IMG/VR virus record: IMGVR_UViG_3300025671_000263
Location: 1-32,963 of that record
DNA length: 32,963 nt
DNA from: a virus
Strand: one strand, 5' to 3'
This document shows, piece by piece, positions 6,065 to 32,963 of the stretch. Every line of letters starts with the position of its first letter. Within the stretch, counting starts at the first letter, position 1. The notes beneath the pieces were generated by a model. The model did no database searches. It was not told the origin of the DNA and saw only the letters and a program-made list of their open reading frames with translations. A program made the position numbers and the translations under genes.

Positions 6065-7102
6065 ATGAATATCATTGAGTTAATTATAGACGAGAATGAC
6101 GAGTTTAGCGGAATAGACGCTATCTCTATTGTTGAATCACCGGCAATCGAAGAAAACTTTATCGCACTAAATGAGCAAAAGGAATACAAATTTGCGGAGG
6201 TAGATAATGAGAAGAGAATATTAATGGGTGCTATATTGATTCCTAATAAGCCTATTTATCGCAAAGATGGCGACAAAGAGTATTATATATACTTTACTAA
6301 AGACACGGTTAAAAAAGCGTCAGAGTTATTCTTAATGCGTGGTAAGCAAAACAATAGCACGTATGAACACTTTGAAAAGATTAACGGGTTAACGCTAGTA
6401 GAGTCTTGGATCGTAGAGGATAAGGAGAAAGATAAGACCGCGTTATACGGTATGGATTTACCGGTAGGCACTTGGGCAGGTACTCTTAAAGTAAATAACG
6501 ATGACGTATGGAATGAGTACGTTAAAACAAATAAGGTTAAAGGCTTTAGTATAGAAGGATATTTTGCTGAGAAAAATGAGCGACCTAACGAGGTTATCGA
6601 AGAGGACTTGTCAGCAGAGATACAGGCGGGTTTAAAATTGTTAGAGATTAAACAGGCATTAATTGAGTATCAGCTAAAATCCTTTTCTAATTACCCGGAT
6701 GGAATTAAGGGAAATGCAAAACGTGGTATTGAGTTAAATAAGAAGCAAGGAAATAAATGCGCAACCCAAACAGGTAAAGTACGCGCACAGCAATTAGCAC
6801 AAGGAAAGGCGATCACCTTACAAACGGTTAAGAGGATGTATTCATATTTATCACGAGCCGAAGAATATTACGATCCGAATGACACTACCGCGTGTGGTAC
6901 TATTTCGTATTTATTATGGGGAGGTAAAGCCGGTCTACGATGGTCGCGTTCTATATTAAAACAAGAGGGCGAAATTGAAATGGTAGAGCGATTAATAGAC
7001 GAATCATTAAAGGCGCCTTGTTGGGAAGGCTATGAGATGATCGGATATAAAAGAAAGAATGGTAAAAAAGTTCCTAATTGCGTACCTATTAAAAGAAAAT
7101 GA
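6065..7102 (+). CDS. Prohead protease, XkdF-type, fused to a second conserved domain
   Basis: A 345-residue protein. Residues 1-170 fit the phage serine protease XkdF family, with the opening 'AISIVESPAIEENF', a likely catalytic His in STYEHFEKINGLTLVESW (His 102) and a likely Ser in KGFSIEGYF (Ser 162). This protease would process scaffold and capsid during head maturation. Residues about 208-300 form a separate conserved module (NAKRGIELN..GNKCATQTGKVRAQQLA...MYSYLSRAEEYY...CGTISYLLWGGKAGLRW), and the last 30 residues carry CWEGYEMIGYKRKNGKKVPNCVP. I recognise both modules from Bacteroidota phage proteins, but their function is not known to me. The gene is followed by scaffold and capsid genes, as expected. 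Confidence 0.8.
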   Translation: MNIIELIIDENDEFSGIDAISIVESPAIEENFIALNEQKEYKFAEVDNEKRILMGAILIPNKPIYRKDGDKEYYIYFTKDTVKKASELFLMRGKQNNSTYEHFEKINGLTLVESWIVEDKEKDKTALYGMDLPVGTWAGTLKVNNDDVWNEYVKTNKVKGFSIEGYFAEKNERPNEVIEEDLSAEIQAGLKLLEIKQALIEYQLKSFSNYPDGIKGNAKRGIELNKKQGNKCATQTGKVRAQQLAQGKAITLQTVKRMYSYLSRAEEYYDPNDTTACGTISYLLWGGKAGLRWSRSILKQEGEIEMVERLIDESLKAPCWEGYEMIGYKRKNGKKVPNCVPIKRK

Positions 7103-7248
7103 GAAACAAAGAATTTAAGACACCGTCATACTCTAGTCCTAAAGGTGGGCGTAGAGCGTGTTACTGTAAAGACACAAACACATACTCGATTAAGTGTTGC
7201 GATGGGTCATTATGGGCGCAAGGTATTGGCTCAATTTACAGAAAGTAA
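7099..7248 (+). CDS. Small Cys-rich phage protein, 49 residues
   Basis: The start overlaps the protease stop (ATGA at 7099-7102). The product contains GGRRACYCKDTNTYSIKCCDGSLWAQGIG, with four cysteines in CxC and CC pairs that could bind zinc. The phrase 'CCDGSLWAQGIG' is one I know from small genes next to head genes in Bacteroidota phages, so the gene is very likely real despite its size. The function is unknown. The next 52 bases are non-coding and AT-rich. Confidence 0.75.
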   Translation: MRNKEFKTPSYSSPKGGRRACYCKDTNTYSIKCCDGSLWAQGIGSIYRK

Positions 7249-7300
7249 AATGCAAAAAAAATCATTAATTCGTTAAACCTATAAATTATTAATTCATTTT

Positions 7301-7930
7301 ATGAAAGCAACTGATCTATTAGAAAAGATTCAAACGCTTCTATCTGCTAAAGTACAATTAGCGGAAATGAAGTTAGAGAACGGAACAGTACTTGAAGCGG
7401 AATCATTCGCAACAGGTGAATCTGTTTTTATCGTAACCGAAGACGACAAAGTTGCTTTACCTGTCGGTGAGTATGAACTCGAAGATGGTAGAGCGTTAAT
7501 CGTTGAGGAAGAGGGTATCATTGCAGAGGTTAAAGCTATGACCGAAGCACAAGAAGAAGAAGAAGAGGTAAAAGAAGAGGCTGAAATGTCTGCAGAAGAT
7601 TTAGCAGAAGTTGAGGTTGAAGTTGAGCCGGAATCTTACGACAGCCCTGCCGAAGCTGAAAAAGCAGAGGACATTATCCAAGCAGTAGTTGATGCAGTAG
7701 CACCGGCTATTGAAGAGATTACAGAGGAGTTAGGAAAGATGAAAGAGGAGATGGAAAAAATCAAAATGGAGTATGACAAGAAGAAAGAAGAAATGTCATC
7801 ACAAGCTCCTGCGACAAAGCCATTAAAGCATTCACCAGAGAGTGGAGCAACCTCTGTTAGAACACCATTAGCGTCTAAACGCGCTCGTTCTACAACTGAC
7901 GTAGTATTTGCTAAAATGTTTAATAAATAA
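7301..7930 (+). CDS. Probable capsid scaffolding protein
   Basis: A 209-residue protein. The N-terminal part (about 1-80) is beta-rich and binding-like (KVQLAEMKLENGTVLEAESFATGESVFIVTEDDKVALPVGEYELEDGRALIVEEEG). It is followed by a very acidic stretch (Glu-rich, about 85-125), a coiled coil (about 130-165, TEELGKMKEEMEKIKMEYDKKKEEM) and a basic Ser/Thr-rich tail. An acidic, coiled-coil protein between prohead protease and major capsid protein fits a scaffold that is cleaved by the protease. I know the 'LENGT.ieAE.FA.G..VFI' region from such phages. Role inferred from composition and position. Confidence 0.7.
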   Translation: MKATDLLEKIQTLLSAKVQLAEMKLENGTVLEAESFATGESVFIVTEDDKVALPVGEYELEDGRALIVEEEGIIAEVKAMTEAQEEEEEVKEEAEMSAEDLAEVEVEVEPESYDSPAEAEKAEDIIQAVVDAVAPAIEEITEELGKMKEEMEKIKMEYDKKKEEMSSQAPATKPLKHSPESGATSVRTPLASKRARSTTDVVFAKMFNK

Positions 7931-7935
7931 TAGAT

Positions 7936-8058
7936 ATGGATATAAACAACGAGAAATTACAAGAGATATTTGATAATGCTCCAGAAGATAAAAAAGAAGC
8001 AAGGAAATACTTTAGAGAGCATAATAGGTTCCTACATACTAACCCTAAAAACCATTAA
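7936..8058 (+). CDS. Tiny head-cluster protein, 40 residues, unknown
   Basis: The product has two short helices (INNEKLQEIFDNAPEDKKEARKYFREH) and a basic end. It begins 6 bases after the scaffold stop and ends two bases before the next start. Tight packing and sensible amphipathic sequence support a real gene. No function is recognised. Confidence 0.5.
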   Translation: MDINNEKLQEIFDNAPEDKKEARKYFREHNRFLHTNPKNH

Positions 8059-8060
8059 TA

Positions 8061-8762
8061 ATGTCAGAAACAAGATATTTATCATCGGTTAACGGAGATA
8101 GTGCCGATAATGTAAAATTCGTTAATGCGTCAGATTGGGATCTTACATCTACGGGAGCAAATGCAACTAGCGTTTTATGGTTATATCCTGAAGATTTTGG
8201 GAAGACTATTGTCCTTAATGAACCGCCTCCAATTAACCCCGCTAATTTAGGCTCATCAACTTGGTTTAATAAATTCTGGATTATGTTTACAGGAGTATAT
8301 CAAGAAGACCCTACAGCAGAAGCAATTTGGGGTGGTGATTTTGGTGAAATATTAATAGGTAAACAATATATGGAGCTTCCGGAAGGTTCTCAAATAAGAA
8401 TTGTTAAAGGTTATCCTGATACTGATCCTGTTGAAACCGTATCACCGGCAAGAGATGCAGATTTTCAACAATTACGTCTTACCACAGACTATTATATAGA
8501 ACCATTTTCTGGTCGTCAATACTATCCCGGAGATTGGGCAACTTATGAATCATATTGGATAACACAATCACCAACTTCGACATTGAAATATAAAGATTGG
8601 TATAACTGTAGCGTAGGTAATAGTCCAACTACAGGATTGTCTTGGGGTGATTCTATTGTAATTACTAAATTAGGCAATATTCATTTTGATGATACTAATG
8701 GTAAGGATATATACTTTGTAATGAATGCGGACGTACACGCGGAGAACCCAGATATTTACTAA
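8061..8762 (+). CDS. Unknown virion-type protein between scaffold and capsid genes
   Basis: A 233-residue protein rich in Trp, Tyr, Asp and Thr (SDWDLTSTG, STWFNKFWIMFTGVYQ, YWITQSPTSTLKYKDWYNCS). It looks like a soluble beta-rich domain, perhaps a head decoration or spike. There is no signal peptide and no membrane segment. Its sequence is more AT-rich than the protease and capsid genes around it, which suggests an exchangeable gene. A decoration role is only an inference from its place just before the major capsid gene. Confidence 0.6.
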   Translation: MSETRYLSSVNGDSADNVKFVNASDWDLTSTGANATSVLWLYPEDFGKTIVLNEPPPINPANLGSSTWFNKFWIMFTGVYQEDPTAEAIWGGDFGEILIGKQYMELPEGSQIRIVKGYPDTDPVETVSPARDADFQQLRLTTDYYIEPFSGRQYYPGDWATYESYWITQSPTSTLKYKDWYNCSVGNSPTTGLSWGDSIVITKLGNIHFDDTNGKDIYFVMNADVHAENPDIY

Positions 8763-25170: not shown

Positions 25171-25968
25171 ATGAGACCAATTCAAGTAGCACAAACCTTA
25201 GAAAGCAACAAGTGGAAATTTGCAAGTACATTTAAATATAGAGCACCGCATTGGTATACTCTTATAGAAACTTGGGATGATAAAGACCACTTCACACGAA
25301 TAGCCCACAGCGTTAGAGAATACTCTAGTAGAGAATACTTTTGGGGTAAACCCTTTCTAGTATGGAATTACAAGGGTATGAAATATTGGGTAATGGATGA
25401 CGATCCCAAAGACGCAGTTATCATTAATAAGACTTTTAATTCTTCGCAGTACAAAGGTCGAGATGATATAGAGTTAAAAGATACCGGTGAGTTAAACCCA
25501 CAAGTAACAAGACGAATACTAACAGATATCATTGACCAAGTACTACAGGGTAGGTTCGTGTATGAGATTGGATGTGGTCAAACCACTAATATCAATATGT
25601 GCCATTTTGTAGGTAACGCAGATTATTTAGGAGTTGATCCGGTTAGTTTTTACGTGCAGTTATCAAGGCAAAAGAATCCCGGTTATAAATTTCTAGTAGA
25701 TCGTTTCGAAACATACAGACGTGGTAAGTTTATAAAAGAGCGCACTGTGTTAGTCGGCTTGTATGGCAGTCCAAACTTTGTATTGGGTGAGTATCTAGCA
25801 GAGGTCGCAGAGTATGGCGGGTATATTTTAATGTTCTACAAAAAAGACAAATGTCCTCATTCCGGTATATATCCTATTTATTACACAAGCGAAGAAATTG
25901 ATGTGGTTTTAGGAGTAAAATCAAAAACAATAGAAACTGAAAATTATATAATTAAATACAAAGTATGA
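25171..25968 (+). CDS. Methyltransferase-fold protein with an extra N-terminal domain
   Basis: A 265-residue protein. Residues about 128-265 read as a Rossmann-type SAM-dependent methyltransferase: FVYEIGCGQTTNI (129-141) for motif I, YLGVDP (152-157) for motif II and a strand VLVGLYGSPNFVLGEYL. Residues 1-125 form a separate domain (VAQTLESNKWKFASTFKYRAPHWYTLIETW; YFWGKPFLVWNYKGMKYWVMDDDPKDAVIIN) whose 'pHwYt...w...YW.M....e..IIN' pattern I know from phage genes in modification-type clusters. The substrate is not readable. There is no NPPY/DPPY motif, so it is not a standard adenine or cytosine methylase. It overlaps the glycosyltransferase gene by 4 bases. Confidence 0.65.
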   Translation: MRPIQVAQTLESNKWKFASTFKYRAPHWYTLIETWDDKDHFTRIAHSVREYSSREYFWGKPFLVWNYKGMKYWVMDDDPKDAVIINKTFNSSQYKGRDDIELKDTGELNPQVTRRILTDIIDQVLQGRFVYEIGCGQTTNINMCHFVGNADYLGVDPVSFYVQLSRQKNPGYKFLVDRFETYRRGKFIKERTVLVGLYGSPNFVLGEYLAEVAEYGGYILMFYKKDKCPHSGIYPIYYTSEEIDVVLGVKSKTIETENYIIKYKV

Positions 25969-26552
25969 ATACAAAGTTTATAATGATGACTTGTGATATG
26001 CGTTCGGAAAGAATAGACTATTACAAAAAAGAAATTCCTAATTTAATATTAAATAAGGATGACTTCCCTAAAGAAGCAAGTGGTAAATTTAATTCAACTG
26101 CTTGGAATAATTATTTAAGGGGATGGGAGTTAGCAGGAGAAAATCCGACAGTACAAATGGATGATGATATTGTTTTATGTAATAACTTTTTTAATAAGAT
26201 AAATTGGATTATAAGTTTGCATCCCGAAGATGTTATTCAGTTTTTTAGTATGAGAAAAGATGACTTGAGCATAGGCACAAGATATATAAATGGCTCTAAA
26301 TTTATGATGCAACAATGTTATTATTTACCTGCAGGTGTTGCTAAAGGTATATTGTCATTAAAAGACGAATGGTATGAAAATGGAAAAGAGGGAGACAAAG
26401 CTCCTACAGACCTTATGATGGCAGAATATTTCAAAAGAAATAAAATAAAGTATTTGAATTATTGTCCAAATTTAGTAGATCATATAGAGGGTAAGAGTTC
26501 AATAGACTCAAGAAGAAGTAGTAGAAGAGTATCTAAAACTTTTGTGAAATGA
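25965..26552 (+). CDS. GT-A type glycosyltransferase
   Basis: A 195-residue protein. It begins with a strand and the Rx(S)ERIDYY pattern of GT25-like glycosyltransferases (CDMRSERIDYYKKEIPNLIL), then VQMDDDIVL (63-71) with the Asp-rich metal and sugar-nucleotide site, and CPNLVDHIEGKSSIDSRRSSRRVSKTF (167-193), the 'P.LV.H....S' ending seen in small fringe/GT25-type enzymes. It would transfer a sugar from a nucleotide donor. The gene is very AT-rich compared with 25171 and 27091. The target could be DNA, a virion protein or a host surface. Confidence 0.72.
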   Translation: MNTKFIMMTCDMRSERIDYYKKEIPNLILNKDDFPKEASGKFNSTAWNNYLRGWELAGENPTVQMDDDIVLCNNFFNKINWIISLHPEDVIQFFSMRKDDLSIGTRYINGSKFMMQQCYYLPAGVAKGILSLKDEWYENGKEGDKAPTDLMMAEYFKRNKIKYLNYCPNLVDHIEGKSSIDSRRSSRRVSKTFVK

Positions 26553-26590
26553 AAAATTTTGTGCAACTTATTTTATAAAAATTTAATGTT

Positions 26591-27094
26591 ATGAATGTAA
26601 AATGGGATTATGATTTAAAAGATTGGCAAAACGCAAACCCTGTTTTGTACACAGAAAAGAATGTTTTACCATATAGTTATAAGTTCAACGAAGATGAATT
26701 TAATGCAGTTTTGGATAAAAAAGGTCATCAGTTGAAAACTTGGGGTAATGCGGATTCTACAAGTGAGCCACATTGGATAGGAGTTAAAAAACAAACGCCT
26801 TTGCATACAGATCCAAGATATCCAAGATATACTTGGCATTTAATTTTACGAGTAGATAATTTTTGTTTAAGAGGAATCAATAAAGAAGAAGTTGTTTTAG
26901 AGGACAATATGCTTATTTTATTAGACACTCATTCACCTCATCAGTTGTTATCATTATCTAAAGACGCATTATATTATTTTGCGGTAAGTATTGATAGTAA
27001 AGAGATAATGAGTAAAAGTATAGCTAAAGAGAAACTAATTAAGTATGCAGAGTCTAATACAATATTAAGTCATACAGACCGAATTACTAAATGA
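26591..27094 (+). CDS. 2OG-Fe(II) oxygenase-like protein
   Basis: A 167-residue protein with the HxD...H facial triad pattern: TPLHTDPRYPRYTWHLILRVDNF (69-91), with His 72 and Asp 74 in the motif, and LDTHSPHQLL (111-120), with His 114 or 117 as the distal ligand. Lys 124 is a candidate for the 2-oxoglutarate contact. This 'TP.H.DP..PR.T..L.LR...' group appears in phages near DNA modification genes. It would hydroxylate a substrate, possibly a nucleotide base or a protein side chain. Like the glycosyltransferase, it is much more AT-rich than 27091 onwards. It overlaps that gene by 4 bases. Confidence 0.65.
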   Translation: MNVKWDYDLKDWQNANPVLYTEKNVLPYSYKFNEDEFNAVLDKKGHQLKTWGNADSTSEPHWIGVKKQTPLHTDPRYPRYTWHLILRVDNFCLRGINKEEVVLEDNMLILLDTHSPHQLLSLSKDALYYFAVSIDSKEIMSKSIAKEKLIKYAESNTILSHTDRITK

Positions 27095-28236
27095 GAATCT
27101 ATAAAAAGGAAAACGTCTACGAAGCGTCATTAAATAGGATTAGATATCTCTTTGATGAGTTTGAGGATGTGGTAGTGTCATTTAGTGGTGGTAAGGATTC
27201 GACTGTTGTACTAAACTTAGCATTACAAGTTGCAGAGGAAAAGGGTCGATTACCATTAAAAGTTATGTTCCTCGATCAAGAGGCAGAGTGGCAAGCTGTA
27301 ATAGATTACATTGAAGAGGTATTCGCAGACCCTAGAGTTGATCCGATGTGGCTACAAATTCCCTTTCACATATTTAATGCCTCGTCTAATATTAAGCAAT
27401 GGATAGTCGCTTGGGAAGAGGGCGCGGAGTGGATGCGTCCAAGAAACCCTATGGCATTAACAGAGAATGTGTATGGCACAATGCGTTTCTTTGATTTGTT
27501 TAGTGCTATCCCGGCATACCATTATAAGGACAGAAAGATGTGTTTCTTAGGTGGAGTAAGAGCAGAGGAATCACCAAGGCGTTATCTAGCAATGACAGAG
27601 GATTTAACCTATAAAGATATTACGTGGGGTAAACAGCTATCTAAGAATAAAACAGAACAGCATTACACGTTCTATCCTATTTATGATTGGTCATATACAG
27701 ACGTATGGAAGTCGATCCACGATAACAAGTGGGCATACACTAAGGTCTATGACTATCAATATATGCACGGGGTACACATTCGTAGTATGCGTGTATCAAA
27801 CCTACACCACGAAACCGCATTAGAGGTTTTACAATACCTACAAGAAGTAGAGCAAGAAACCTGGGTTGCATTAACAAAGCGGATGAGTGGGATCAATACT
27901 GCCGGAGTTATGAAGAAGCAGTACTTTGTAAAGGAGTTGCCATTTATGTTTAAAGATTGGGCAGAATACAGAGATTACCTTACCGACAACCTAGTTCAGA
28001 ACGAAAAGGTAAAGGCTAAATTTCATAAGACTTGGAAGCGTCAAGCAGAGATATTTGAGGGTATGAAACATATTGATGATCTACATAAGGCGCAAGTGAG
28101 AACCATACTCGCAAACGATGAGGACTTAACAAAGCTTAAAAATTTTACTGAAAGACCCGACATATTAAATTGGAAAAAATGGAAAAAAGGAATCATCACA
28201 AAGTATACCGATGGAAACAAGTATATCTTTGGTTAG
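27091..28236 (+). CDS. PP-loop PAPS reductase-like protein (IbrA-like)
   Basis: A 381-residue protein of the phosphoadenosine phosphosulfate reductase superfamily. The PP-loop SFSGGKDSTVV (30-40, with SGGKDST) binds ATP. It continues with LPLKVMFLDQEAEW, then FLGGVRAEESPRRYLA (the substrate-side loop) and FYPIYDWSYTDVWKSIHDN. At the C-terminus is a long extension (about 240-381). The family is the one of IbrA (DUF3440-type), usually paired with a ParB-like IbrB, as here. Related enzymes (DndC, for example) activate a substrate by adenylation for sulfur chemistry. The real substrate of the phage form is not known to me. Confidence 0.82.
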   Translation: MRIYKKENVYEASLNRIRYLFDEFEDVVVSFSGGKDSTVVLNLALQVAEEKGRLPLKVMFLDQEAEWQAVIDYIEEVFADPRVDPMWLQIPFHIFNASSNIKQWIVAWEEGAEWMRPRNPMALTENVYGTMRFFDLFSAIPAYHYKDRKMCFLGGVRAEESPRRYLAMTEDLTYKDITWGKQLSKNKTEQHYTFYPIYDWSYTDVWKSIHDNKWAYTKVYDYQYMHGVHIRSMRVSNLHHETALEVLQYLQEVEQETWVALTKRMSGINTAGVMKKQYFVKELPFMFKDWAEYRDYLTDNLVQNEKVKAKFHKTWKRQAEIFEGMKHIDDLHKAQVRTILANDEDLTKLKNFTERPDILNWKKWKKGIITKYTDGNKYIFG

Positions 28237-28325
28237 TATCTGTAGGAGTATGGATATTAGCGTTTCTAGCATTTGCTTATTTAATTCTAGCCATTTATTG
28301 GTTAGTTGAATTATTATTTATATGA
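28179..28325 (+). CDS. Small membrane protein between PP-loop and ParB genes, 48 residues
   Basis: Starts inside the end of the PP-loop gene (58-base overlap in another frame) and its stop overlaps the start of the ParB-like gene (28322). It has a basic N-terminus (MEKRNHHKVYRWKQ) and one long hydrophobic segment (VYLWLVSVGVWILAFLAFAYLILAIYWLVELLFI). The perfect fit between the two genes, filling the 85-base gap, argues that it is real. No function is recognised. Confidence 0.5.
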   Translation: MEKRNHHKVYRWKQVYLWLVSVGVWILAFLAFAYLILAIYWLVELLFI

Positions 28326-28990
28326 ACATATTAAAACTACTACAAGACGAAATTGATAAGCAAGACGATAAACTTGCATACATTGAGCAGATACGCGATC
28401 TGTTACATAAACTAAGTCCGTTACAAGCTCAACCTGTAGACCGGGTGCGATGGGTGGATGTGGATAAGGTACAGGCTAACGATTATAATCCTAATAGTGT
28501 TGCGACTATTGAGATGAAATTATTAGCTACTTCTATTAGCCACGATGGGTATACACAGCCGGTAGTAACTATTTATGACCAAAAAAAGGATAAGTACGTT
28601 ATAATAGATGGTTTTCATAGGTATTTAACTTGTAAGACACACGAAGAGATTAGGAAAAGAAATAATGGTAAACTACCAATAGTAGTATTAGACAAAGACA
28701 TTAATGATCGTATGGCGTCTACCGTTCGTCATAACAGAGCAAGAGGTAAGCACTCTATTAGCGGTATGAGTAATATAGTCTTTGAGATGCTCGATAACGG
28801 ATGGCAAGACCACGATATATGCGAGGAGTTAGGAATGGAGGCAGAGGAACTATTACGTCTCAAACATATAACAGGATTTAGCAAACTATTTGCAAACACA
28901 GAATACAAGAAAGCTTGGGAATCTAGGAAACAACTACAAATTAAAAAACAATATTATGAGAGTAGAGAGCGTAGCACTAACGCAGATTAA
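28322..28990 (+). CDS. ParB-like protein, IbrB-type
   Basis: A 222-residue protein. A helical N-terminus (1-38) is followed by a ParB/sulfiredoxin-like domain: VDKVQANDYNPNSVATIEMKLLATSISHDGYTQPVVT (48-84), YVIIDGFHRYLTCK (92-105, the ParB box with GFHRY) and TVRHNRARGKHSI (134-146). A helix-turn-helix-like segment follows (WQDHDICEELGMEAEELLRLKHITGF). ParB-type domains bind nucleotides and, in this pairing with an IbrA-like PP-loop protein, act as its partner. The last 35 bases overlap the next ParB-like gene. Confidence 0.8.
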   Translation: MNILKLLQDEIDKQDDKLAYIEQIRDLLHKLSPLQAQPVDRVRWVDVDKVQANDYNPNSVATIEMKLLATSISHDGYTQPVVTIYDQKKDKYVIIDGFHRYLTCKTHEEIRKRNNGKLPIVVLDKDINDRMASTVRHNRARGKHSISGMSNIVFEMLDNGWQDHDICEELGMEAEELLRLKHITGFSKLFANTEYKKAWESRKQLQIKKQYYESRERSTNAD

Positions 28991-29504
28991 ACCTTATTGG
29001 CGAAATGCTAGAAAGAACGAAAGAACAGTAGAGGCATTAAAACAGTCTATTACTAGCTATGGCTTTAACCAACCAATAGTTTTAGATAAGGATAATGTAA
29101 TAATTACAGGACACGCAAGATACAAAGCCTTAATGCAATTAGGTTGGACAGAAGCACCCTGTGTTAAATTAGACTTACCGGAAGAGAAAGCAAAAGAATA
29201 CCGTATTGCTGATAACAAGACACACGAAATGACGATGTGGGATAACGAGCAATTAGTGGTAGAGTTAAGAGAGATAGGAAACTTTGAAGAAATGCAGTCT
29301 TACTTTCAGAATGTAAATTTAGGCAGTTGGTTAGACGATAGCGTAGGATTTAATCTTAATCCTGTTACAGAGGAAAGAGTGGCAAAGAAACAAGAGGAAT
29401 TGGAAACACGTTTTGACGCAGAGAAAACCATCGAGCCACAATTAGATTTAATATGTCCTCATTGTATGGAAGAGTTTAGTATCAAAAAGAGTGAGCTTCT
29501 ATGA
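28956..29504 (+). CDS. Second ParB-like protein with C-terminal zinc ribbon
   Basis: A 182-residue protein when started at ATG 28956; an upstream in-frame ATG at 28890 would add 22 residues with no domain sense and is rejected. ParB-like domain: ALTQIKPYWRNARKNERTVEALKQSITSYGFNQPIVLDKDNVIITGHARYKALMQLG (7-63), with the GHARYKA box, and EYRIADNKTHEMTMWDNEQL. The C-terminal end LICPHCMEEFSI has half of a zinc ribbon (CPHC). Such proteins are common directly before terminase or methylase genes in phages and plasmids. It may guide a DNA-modifying or packaging enzyme. Confidence 0.8.
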   Translation: MRVESVALTQIKPYWRNARKNERTVEALKQSITSYGFNQPIVLDKDNVIITGHARYKALMQLGWTEAPCVKLDLPEEKAKEYRIADNKTHEMTMWDNEQLVVELREIGNFEEMQSYFQNVNLGSWLDDSVGFNLNPVTEERVAKKQEELETRFDAEKTIEPQLDLICPHCMEEFSIKKSELL

Positions 29505-29863
29505 GCGAAGAAATCGACATAATCGACACTAAAAAAAGAATGTTAAAAGCCTTAGAGGAATCTTTAGGGATAGTGTCTGTTGCGTCTAGTAATGCCGGGA
29601 TACACCGATCAACGCATTACCTATGGATGAATAATGACGAGGACTACAAGAGAGCAGTAGAGGAAATACATAATGTATGTCTTGACTTTGCAGAGAGTAA
29701 GTTGTTTGAGAACATTAAAGGTAAAAGAGAAACCTCGATCATATTCTATTTAAAGACGCGCGGTAAGAGTAGAGGATATGTCGAAAGACAAGAATTAGAC
29801 TTAGGAGGTGATAACCACTTTAGAGTTGAGGTGATAAGACCGGATGAGGACAATACAGACTAA
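29501..29863 (+). CDS. Terminase small subunit
   Basis: A 120-residue protein. The N-terminal part is a helix-turn-helix DNA-binding region (KKRMLKALEESLGIVSVASSNAGIHRSTHYLWMNNDEDYKRAVEEI), followed by a linker helix (VCLDFAESKLFENIKGKRETSIIFYLKTRGKSRGYVERQELDLGG), which is the usual style of TerS in Bacteroidota phages ('..fyLKtrgk.RGYveRqe.'). It recognises the packaging site on phage DNA. It overlaps terL by 20 bases. Confidence 0.85.
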   Translation: MSEEIDIIDTKKRMLKALEESLGIVSVASSNAGIHRSTHYLWMNNDEDYKRAVEEIHNVCLDFAESKLFENIKGKRETSIIFYLKTRGKSRGYVERQELDLGGDNHFRVEVIRPDEDNTD

Positions 29864-31004
29864 TGTAGTATTCGATCATATAGAGAAGTCCGATAAACGT
29901 ATCCTAATAGAACAGGGGGGTACGCGATCCGGAAAGACGTACAATATCCTTATATGGCTCATATTTGGTTACTGTATGCGCAACACGGGTAAAGTGGCTA
30001 CAATAGCTAGAAAGACGTATCCCGCATTAAGAACGTCTGCTATGAGGGATTTCATACAAATCCTACGCGACTATAATCTGTATGACGAAACAAAGCATAA
30101 TAAGTCAAGTAGTGAGTATCACTTAAACAACAATCTTGTAGAGTTTATTTCATTAGATCAACCGACAAAGGTACGAGGTCGTAAGAGGGATATCCTTTTC
30201 ATAAACGAAGCTAACGAGTTGCATTGGGAAGATTGGCAACAGTTGGTATTTCGTACTACCGGAAGAATTATAATCGACTACAACCCGTCTGACGAGTTCC
30301 ATTGGATATATGAGAGGGTAAAGACAAGAGAGGATGCCGAGTTTCATATTACAACCTATAAAGACAACCCGTTCTTAGAAGAGAGTATCATACAAGAGAT
30401 TGAACTCTTAAAGAATACTGATGAGAATTATTGGCGCATTTATGGATTAGGTGAGGTCGGTGTAGGTAAAGCAATCATATTTGACGTTTCATTAATAGAC
30501 GCCATCCCGGATAAAGCTAGATTCTTATCATACGGTATGGACTTCGGTTATACGAATGATCCGACTACATTAATAGGAGTTTACATTTGGGACAATGAGT
30601 TATACTTCAAAGAGTACATTTACAGAACCAATATGACCAACCGGGATATCGCTAATGAGATGAGTCGCTTAATGATTGGTAGGAGGGATGAGATATATGC
30701 TGATAGTGCTGAACCAAAGAGTGTAGACGAAATCTACAAAATGGGATGGAATATTAAACCGGCTACTAAGGGAAGAGATTCCGTAAACATAGGCATTGAT
30801 ATGCTTAAACGCTACAAGCTATATGTAACAAAGGATTCTGTAAATACCATTAAGGAGTTTAGGAACTACAAATGGAAAGAGGATAAAAACGGCATCGTGC
30901 TTAATTCGCCTGTTGATCTCTTCAATCACAGCGTAGACGCAATCCGGTACGCGACATACGCTAAACTGTCGCGCCCGAACTACGGTCAATACGCTTTACG
31001 CTAA
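29844..31004 (+). CDS. Terminase large subunit
   Basis: A 386-residue protein. ATPase domain: Walker A GGTRSGKT (25-32), Walker B-like DILFINEANEL (116-126) and IIDYNPS (about 143-149). Nuclease domain: MDFGYTNDPT, EIYADSAEPKSVDEIYKMGWNIKPATKGRDSVNIGIDML, and a C-terminal VDLFNHSVDAIRYATY, with the acidic metal-binding residues of the RNase H-like fold. This is the PBSX/Terminase_3 type. It packages DNA into proheads using ATP and cuts it to length. The stop lies 9 bases inside the end of the minus-strand gene, so the two converge. Confidence 0.93.
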   Translation: MRTIQTNVVFDHIEKSDKRILIEQGGTRSGKTYNILIWLIFGYCMRNTGKVATIARKTYPALRTSAMRDFIQILRDYNLYDETKHNKSSSEYHLNNNLVEFISLDQPTKVRGRKRDILFINEANELHWEDWQQLVFRTTGRIIIDYNPSDEFHWIYERVKTREDAEFHITTYKDNPFLEESIIQEIELLKNTDENYWRIYGLGEVGVGKAIIFDVSLIDAIPDKARFLSYGMDFGYTNDPTTLIGVYIWDNELYFKEYIYRTNMTNRDIANEMSRLMIGRRDEIYADSAEPKSVDEIYKMGWNIKPATKGRDSVNIGIDMLKRYKLYVTKDSVNTIKEFRNYKWKEDKNGIVLNSPVDLFNHSVDAIRYATYAKLSRPNYGQYALR

Positions 31005-32465: not shown

Positions 32466-32490
32466 GTTACACCTATATCAGCAAAAAATT

Positions 32491-32511
32491 TATCTTTACG
32501 TTATACCTTTA
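32491..32511 (+). promoter_or_regulatory. Possible promoter of the tail gene block
   Basis: TATCTTTA at 32491-32498, and TACCTTTA at 32504-32511, both resemble the -7 element TAnnTTTG with a final A. The only TTTG upstream (32463-32466) is 24 bases from the first, longer than the usual 19-21, so the call is weak. The next gene starts at 32516. Confidence 0.35.
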
Positions 32512-32515
32512 GATT

Positions 32516-32963
32516 ATGAGATACACATTAGACGTACCAAACAAGCTATCAGAGATTCCGTTACATAAGTATCAGAAATTCTTACGCATTGTAGATCAAA
32601 ACATAGATGATCCAAACTCGGATAGGTTTATCGCTATGAAGATGCTAGAAATCTTTTGCGACCTACCTACCGATGCGATATTCAATTATAAGATAAGAGA
32701 CATTAACGAGGTAACTAATATCATAACAGACCTCCTACAAGAGAAGCCACAATTAGTACGCTCATTTAAAGTCGGTGATACAGAGTTTGGCTTTATCCCT
32801 AGTCTTGAGGATATGACCTTTGGCGAGTACGTAGACCTAGACACATACATAGGCGATTGGGAAAATATCCACAGAGCAATGGCGGTATTATACAGACCCA
32901 TTAAGGCAAAGATTAAAGACAAGTATGAGATCGAAGAGTATAAAGGCGATCATTACTACGATG
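32516..32963 (+). CDS. Tail assembly chaperone, gpG-like, N-terminal part (continues at base 2)
   Basis: Starts at ATG 32516 and stays open to the end of the window, where the 146-bp repeat joins it to the frame at position 2. The first 100 residues (RYTLDVPNKLSEIPLHKYQKFLRIVDQNIDDPNSDRFIAMKMLEIFCDLPTDAIFNYKIRDINEV) are helical, and the opening 'l.evP..lseI.L..Yqkf' is one I know from chaperone-position proteins of Bacteroidota phages. It lies behind a terminator and is the first gene of the tail block. The 3' part and the -1 frameshift are described at the start of the window. Confidence 0.75.
   Translation, partial: MRYTLDVPNKLSEIPLHKYQKFLRIVDQNIDDPNSDRFIAMKMLEIFCDLPTDAIFNYKIRDINEVTNIITDLLQEKPQLVRSFKVGDTEFGFIPSLEDMTFGEYVDLDTYIGDWENIHRAMAVLYRPIKAKIKDKYEIEEYKGDHYYD
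32818..32963. repeat. Right copy of 146-bp terminal repeat
   Basis: Matches bases 1-146 with two differences (CC instead of TT at 32836-32837). See the left copy. Confidence 0.95.

Follow-up and report, generated by a model that had tools for sequence, protein, structure and literature searches.

The three consecutive genes at positions 25171-27094 of a viral record of 32,963 bases (IMG/VR IMGVR_UViG_3300025671_000263, the whole of which is called the window below), encoding a methyltransferase-like protein (P1), a glycosyltransferase (GT) and an Fe(II) oxygenase-like protein (OX), would be exchangeable tailoring genes within an otherwise conserved phage module. This module would modify nucleobases, probably those in the DNA of the phage itself, and would do so at restricted density or only at certain sites. 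This reading, drawn from sequence comparison, is considered to have an even chance of being correct. It builds on a fixed core of neighbouring genes, a variable slot, the co-inheritance of GT and OX, catalytic motifs and a strong avoidance of restriction sites, together with predicted folds. The three open reading frames (ORFs) had been described in an initial annotation of the same DNA as overlapping by 4 bases or separated by a 38-base gap, and their coordinates were confirmed exactly. The genes of the module and the adjoining terminase genes are as follows.

25171..25968, + strand: P1, 265 amino acids (aa); N-terminal domain (NTD) of ~105 aa fused to a Rossmann S-adenosylmethionine (SAM, AdoMet) methyltransferase-like domain (~aa 106-265)
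25965..26552, + strand: GT, 195 aa; predicted GT-A glycosyltransferase with a DDD motif; 4-base overlap with P1
26591..27094, + strand: OX, 167 aa; cupin/double-stranded beta-helix (DSBH) Fe(II) oxygenase-like protein, HxD 72-74 ... H114; 38-base gap after GT
27091..28236, + strand: PP-loop ATP-pyrophosphatase (core), PAPS-reductase-like, DUF3440/IbrA-like, with an SGGKDS loop; 4-base overlap with OX
28322..28990, + strand: ParB1 (core), IbrB-like ParB/Srx-fold protein; phrog_2159 at 4e-77
28956..29504, + strand: ParB2 (core), ParB_N domain and C-terminal CPxC; ATG start at 28956 used
29501-29863, + strand: terminase small subunit (Pfam/PHROG), directly 3' of the module
29844-31004, + strand: terminase large subunit (Pfam/PHROG)

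The PP-loop gene and two ParB genes had been placed directly after the three enzymes, which holds for the PP-loop gene, as it overlaps OX, whereas ParB1 starts 85 bases past the end of the PP-loop gene. The order from module to terminase is common to the close relatives of the window and is also found in distant relatives, there with other families of the large terminase subunit (TerL).

The OX protein, used alone as the query, was found in 50 viral contigs and two metagenome-assembled contigs (n = 53 with the window). A PP-loop gene adjoined OX within 3 kb and on the same strand in 52/53 of these, the 53rd contig stopping at OX, and GT, ParB1 and ParB2 were present in 49, 49 and 45 of the 53, respectively. 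Two of the four contigs lacking GT are explained by contig ends, one (L075) had no recognised GT and one (L077) carried it on the opposite strand; the absences of ParB1 were likewise contig ends. The phages with OX carry different terminase families. The PP-loop protein was also used alone as the query, and the best 80 of at least 364 relatives confirmed in viral contigs, on which all counts out of 80 are based, had ParB1 in 79, ParB2 in 68 and the NTD in 56 loci (63 under a looser rule). The conserved core consists of the PP-loop protein, ParB1, ParB2 and the NTD. Protein distances were compared by permutation in 17 loci sharing one terminase family, and those of GT and OX were strongly correlated (r 0.74; partial r 0.70 given terminase distance, p 0.0005). 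Partial correlations with the PP-loop protein were weak but significant (0.29 for OX and 0.33 for GT, p 0.0035), neither GT nor OX correlated significantly with ParB1 in these loci, and PP-loop and ParB1 distances correlated with each other. GT and OX therefore travel together on top of the core; their co-inheritance exceeds phage phylogeny, the arrangement is more than chance, and the initial proposal of a co-inherited modification cassette coupled to a PP-loop/ParB core was borne out. The co-evolution supports the view that GT and OX act on one product.

The content of the slot varied widely among the 80 PP-loop loci, with GT in 32, GNAT in 27, a methyltransferase bearing a DPPW motif in 27, a P1-type methyltransferase in 16, an AdoMet decarboxylase in 8 and OX in 7. 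OX and the DPPW enzymes were never found together (DPPW in 0/53 OX loci versus 27/73 others; Fisher 5e-8, for loci that are not independent). Some OX loci carry in this slot a Methyltransf_24/TylF-like O-methyltransferase (L017, L018 and L068) or, between GT and OX, an NAD epimerase (L056 and L061; E 1.3e-44). The AdoMet decarboxylase (SpeD-like, E 3e-22) was located within PP-loop/ParB operons at the following positions.

L089, 1914-2285
L110, 2258-2650
L116, 4914-5297
L137, 4708-5076
L146, 2217-2585
L154, 4741-5109

The presence of these genes in the core operon suggests polyamine or decarboxy-SAM chemistry. The decarboxylase activity of phage SpeD homologues can be directed at AdoMet, arginine or ornithine (PMC9992855, PMC10407285), which fits an amine side chain in the SpeD-carrying loci. 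In a single case (L129, 4838-6004), a saccharopine-dehydrogenase-like gene (1.5e-13) was found between the DPPW methyltransferase and the PP-loop gene. The NAD epimerase, TylF-like methyltransferase, AdoMet decarboxylase and saccharopine dehydrogenase would follow a sugar/amine logic and are counted in favour of nucleobase modification.

The DPPW enzymes (~180-220 aa) are encoded directly upstream of the PP-loop gene in L095, L101, L106, L108, L109, L133, L137, L143, L152, L153 and L154, among others. DPPW is the catalytic signature of amino-methyltransferases; one DPPW group matched the Pfam DNA methylase family N6_N4_Mtase (3.4e-9), and both DPPW groups are homologous. ParB2 aligned to the N-terminal part of phrog_498, annotated as 'DNA methyltransferase' (4e-34), in which the ParB2-like region is followed by a DPPW-methyltransferase region, and the two domains therefore occur fused. 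Where different enzymes take one another's place in an operon next to a common core, a shared product is to be expected as their target; from this context, the DPPW DNA-type methyltransferases favour nucleobase modification over virion glycosylation. No match to OX, the NTD or the DPPW family (one member searched) was found in 50,697 cultured-phage records.

The catalytic motifs reported initially were all present at the positions claimed, and the models showed the expected folds for both OX and GT. The AlphaFold model of OX (pLDDT 87.8, pTM 0.85), which carries HTD at 72-74 and THSPH at 113-117, is a DSBH with an HxD...H metal triad, and its nearest solved folds were the Fe(II)/2-oxoglutarate (2OG) oxygenases PolD, proline 3-hydroxylase, ALKBH6/7 and PHD2 (Z 8.4-8.8). 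H72, D74, R79, H114, H117 and D135 were invariant in 40/40 homologues, the triad being H72/D74/H114; iron binding is well supported, and 2OG is probably used. The residue K124 (H114+10), suggested by the first few sequences as the canonical 2OG anchor, failed as such across the 40. Matches of OX in viral sequences included several proteins annotated as aspartyl/asparaginyl hydroxylases and 2OG oxygenases. OX reached no Pfam family above its cut-off (14.6 bits against the gathering cut-off of 22.6 for the aspartyl/asparaginyl beta-hydroxylase family PF05118) and had no match in a PDB sequence search; TET/JBP gave no Pfam match and did not figure among the listed structural matches, though kinship is still conceivable. 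The analogy with base J drawn initially, which lies in the logic of hydroxylation followed by glycosylation, is weak: the predicted fold of OX resembles AspH and prolyl hydroxylases. A second, diverged OX homologue (E 7e-20) lies upstream of the main module in L065 (4874-5425).

GT, with VQMDDDIV and PNLVDHIEGKSS in place, was modelled (AF2; pLDDT 82, pTM 0.81) with a GT-A fold and an acidic metal-binding motif, and matched the glucosyltransferase family phrog_854 (E 7.8e-7). D68, H173 and C118 were invariant among its homologues. Its best structural matches (Z up to 11.6) included COLGALT1, beta-1,4-galactosyltransferase, GnT I and LH3, with tied scores. The window GT had no match to Glyco_transf_25 (PF01755), the best family member (E 0.0065) falling short of the gathering cut-off, and a PDB sequence search gave a chance match only. 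In P1, EIGCGQ was found at 132 and LGVDP at 153, following an NTD with the signature PHxY...YWxM...IN. This domain stands alone, without a methyltransferase, in L002-L004 and many further loci, and is fused to one in L013, L070, L078 and Microbacterium phage Hendrix, where both domains align. As single sequences, neither P1 nor OX found a match in viral contigs, and the P1 methyltransferase domain alone was sub-threshold in Pfam (E 0.26); a hidden Markov model built from stand-alone methyltransferase homologues matched it at 2.4e-14, and its fused relatives exceeded the Pfam gathering cut-offs (Methyltransf_25). The C-terminal domain of P1 is, by homology to Methyltransf_25 proteins, a class I SAM methyltransferase, in line with the Rossmann methyltransferase-like fold that had been noted together with an extra N-terminal domain.

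These folds bear on an unlikely alternative, put forward initially as virion or host surface glycosylation, namely that OX hydroxylates a protein (virion, terminase or host) that GT then glycosylates, in the manner of collagen hydroxylysine, with the methyltransferase capping the sugar. The match of GT to COLGALT1 (Z 11.6) and to the glycosyltransferase domain of LH3, a fused hydroxylase-glycosyltransferase, the fold resemblance of OX to prolyl hydroxylases and AspH, and the TylF-like sugar O-methyltransferases of some modules agree with it. Nevertheless, the COLGALT1 and LH3 scores are tied with those of other GT-A enzymes, the strict partner of the cassette is the PP-loop/ParB core and no structural gene, and the shared slot can carry DPPW enzymes in place of OX.

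The PP-loop protein of the core is IbrA-like, with both PAPS_reduct (5.4e-17; 62.8 bits versus a cut-off of 22.5) and DUF3440 (4.5e-6; 27 versus 25) above cut-off in Pfam, and matched phrog_2302 (3e-85). Conservation analysis revealed no invariant cysteine among its homologues (C107 in 80%), and a role as a true PAPS reductase or in sulfur chemistry was dropped, the invariant catalytic cysteine (C-terminal ECG[IL]H) being missing. Because of this, sulfur transfer is less likely and activation of a base or carboxylate more likely. PP-loop enzymes such as TilS, TtcA, QueC and DndC adenylate their substrates to activate carbonyls. ParB2 matched Pfam ParB_N (1.8e-6), with a nearly invariant CPxC, and ParB1 was weakly similar to ADP-dependent serine kinases.

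A second and rather improbable alternative is modification of RNA (tRNA or phage transcripts) instead of DNA, tRNA being the best-known setting of lysidine-type PP-loop chemistry. TilS and TtcA belong to the PP-loop family (weak matches), a stand-alone homologue of the methyltransferase matched a phage tRNA-methyltransferase family, and an RNA substrate would be compatible with restriction-site avoidance; against this, a family of phage DNA methyltransferases aligns with both the DPPW enzymes and ParB2, and no tRNA gene was found in the window. A regulatory or small-molecule role, in which the IbrA/IbrB-like pair would be a gene-expression co-activator or nucleotide-signal enzyme and GT and OX would modify a metabolite, is quite improbable: prophage gene co-activator is the annotation given to IbrA and IbrB, and ParB1 has its kinase likeness, whereas the diversity of tailoring enzymes better fits the decoration of one variable product, and the module adjoins the terminase across TerL families.

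Restriction-site avoidance was evaluated from tetranucleotide counts, with expected values computed from trinucleotides. The window was found to contain no CATG (90 expected) and a single GGCC (31 expected). CCAG and CTGG were also low, at 6 versus about 43 expected each. CATG was absent from all nearest relatives, and other relatives lacked GATC (0/47), CCGG (0/57) or GTAC (1/30). A palindrome was depleted by more than 90% in 18/27 OX loci and in 24/43 other PP-loop loci, while the same depletion over all 240 non-palindromic words was seen in only 2 and 6 loci, respectively. The ratio of observed to expected counts summed over all 4-base palindromes (0.92) was uninformative, the controls being similar and the individual sites differing. 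Control stretches of T4, phiW-14 and 9g showed no such loss (phiW-14 was low only in CTAG, 8/26), Mu presented mild deficits only, and one Cellulophaga control had lost CGCG and was low in GATC. SPO1, whose DNA contains hydroxymethyluracil, loses only GGCC and CGCG, both free of T; T4 carries glucosyl-hydroxymethylcytosine. CATG holds all four bases and is eliminated, so that a restriction-blocking group is unlikely to stand on every copy of any one base. A modification of the DNA, if any, would be sparse, site-specific, late or not restriction-blocking, or would have another purpose than type II restriction, or the substrate would not be genomic DNA. Of the hypermodification system protecting phage DNA that was initially envisaged, the link to nucleic acids gains from the DPPW enzymes in related modules, and the general shield does not agree with the elimination of CATG and GGCC. 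A T4-like full substitution shielding the phage from restriction is thus highly unlikely: the logic of hydroxylation and glycosylation, the adjoining terminase and the parallel cassette of Hendrix, without strong site avoidance except a CTAG deficit (6/19), speak for it, whereas T4-type DNA would be expected to show no avoidance of palindromes containing the modified base, T4, phiW-14 and 9g keep such sites and SPO1 loses only T-free ones, and CATG, with all four bases, is missing from the window and its close relatives, others having lost GATC, CCGG or GTAC.

For nucleobase modification at limited density or specific sites, the following route is conceivable. At the expense of ATP, the PP-loop enzyme would activate a base carbonyl, to which an amine or amino acid would then be joined as the nucleophile, in the way that TilS makes lysidine; the ParB-like proteins would serve in nucleotide switching and/or DNA targeting. 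OX would hydroxylate the attached side chain, GT would glycosylate the hydroxyl so made, and the P1 methyltransferase would cap either the sugar or the side chain. What is modified, in which order and with what attached group is a reconstruction, and lysidine-like core chemistry is hypothesised by analogy. Several observations weigh against this scheme. The loss of CATG and GGCC indicates that restriction enzymes do encounter the DNA. Among the genes examined, none was recognised as encoding an enzyme of base synthesis at the nucleotide level, and OX does not conserve the basic residue that canonically anchors 2OG (K124 in 18/40 homologues). The DPPW enzymes sit in other loci and are absent from the window phage, and the statistics draw on pairs that are not independent, several contigs being near-identical. 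A fuller version, conceivable though less likely, is a modular platform in uncultured phages: the PP-loop/ParB/NTD core would attach an amine or amino-acid side chain to a base in a lysidine-like reaction, for hydroxylation, glycosylation, methylation, acetylation or aminoalkylation by the enzymes of the slot. Its product would be sparse or at ParB-chosen sites (e.g., near the packaging site) and would serve packaging or the evasion of non-restriction defences and not the blocking of type II enzymes.

A homologue of a tail-region gene was found split over both ends of the record (32474-32962 and 5-238 of the window), and the record is therefore probably a near-complete, circularly permuted phage genome. 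In L041, an amidoligase (Amidoligase_2, 1.2e-32) and a GGACT/AIG2-like cyclotransferase (6908-8423, - strand) flank the module on the opposite strand, and similar-looking minus-strand ORF pairs occur in the group-2 phages L042, L047, L055, L061, L072 and L073.

A literature search found no description of the PP-loop/ParB/NTD module with a tailoring slot; a survey of phage base modification by Iyer et al. in 2013 (NAR 41:7635), which lay outside this comparison, reportedly predicted oxygenase/glycosyltransferase and lysidine-like or SAM-derived base modifications. T4-type glucosyl-hydroxymethylcytosine and base J share with the window the proposed logic of hydroxylation then glycosylation, and differ in that the window OX is not recognisably TET/JBP and restriction sites are avoided, not tolerated. 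The PP-loop protein resembles DndC of Dnd phosphorothioation (DndC/DndB) and BrxP of BREX (PADLOC 2e-9 and 6e-8), with a ParB-like partner; however, it has no invariant cysteine, and no other module protein matched the PADLOC Dnd or BREX models. IbrA/IbrB-type PAPS-reductase and ParB pairs of Flavobacterium, Streptococcus, Lactobacillus and Mycobacterium phages have the core pair in common with the window, but no recognised GT, OX or NTD tailoring genes alongside, and some occur with an SNF2-like helicase. Trios of SNF2-like helicase, PAPS-reductase-like protein and ParB were located in cultured Flavobacterium, Lactobacillus and Fusobacterium phages (L010, 4145-5356; L026, 4833-6002; L028, 8162-9358). 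Three orphan enzymes are thereby tied to a widespread phage pair, with at least 364 PP-loop relatives in viral contigs, and this pair is seen to have an interchangeable tailoring slot; as phages with the module still lose restriction sites, the usual answer of anti-restriction hypermodification does not simply fit. The closest parallel is the terminal cassette of the Microbacterium phages Hendrix, Leaf and Rasputia (Rogerhendrixvirus), which resembles the window in its GT gene(s), NTD-methyltransferase fusion and a PP-loop protein 40-42% identical, and differs in having GNAT in place of OX and extra GTs. In Hendrix the order is GT-GT-methyltransferase-GNAT-PP-loop-three ParB genes-terminase, with the terminase across the record ends and a PP-loop protein 42% identical to that of the window, and restriction sites are not strongly lost, unlike in the window, CTAG alone being deficient; as Hendrix is in culture, its parallel cassette already opens the question to experiment.
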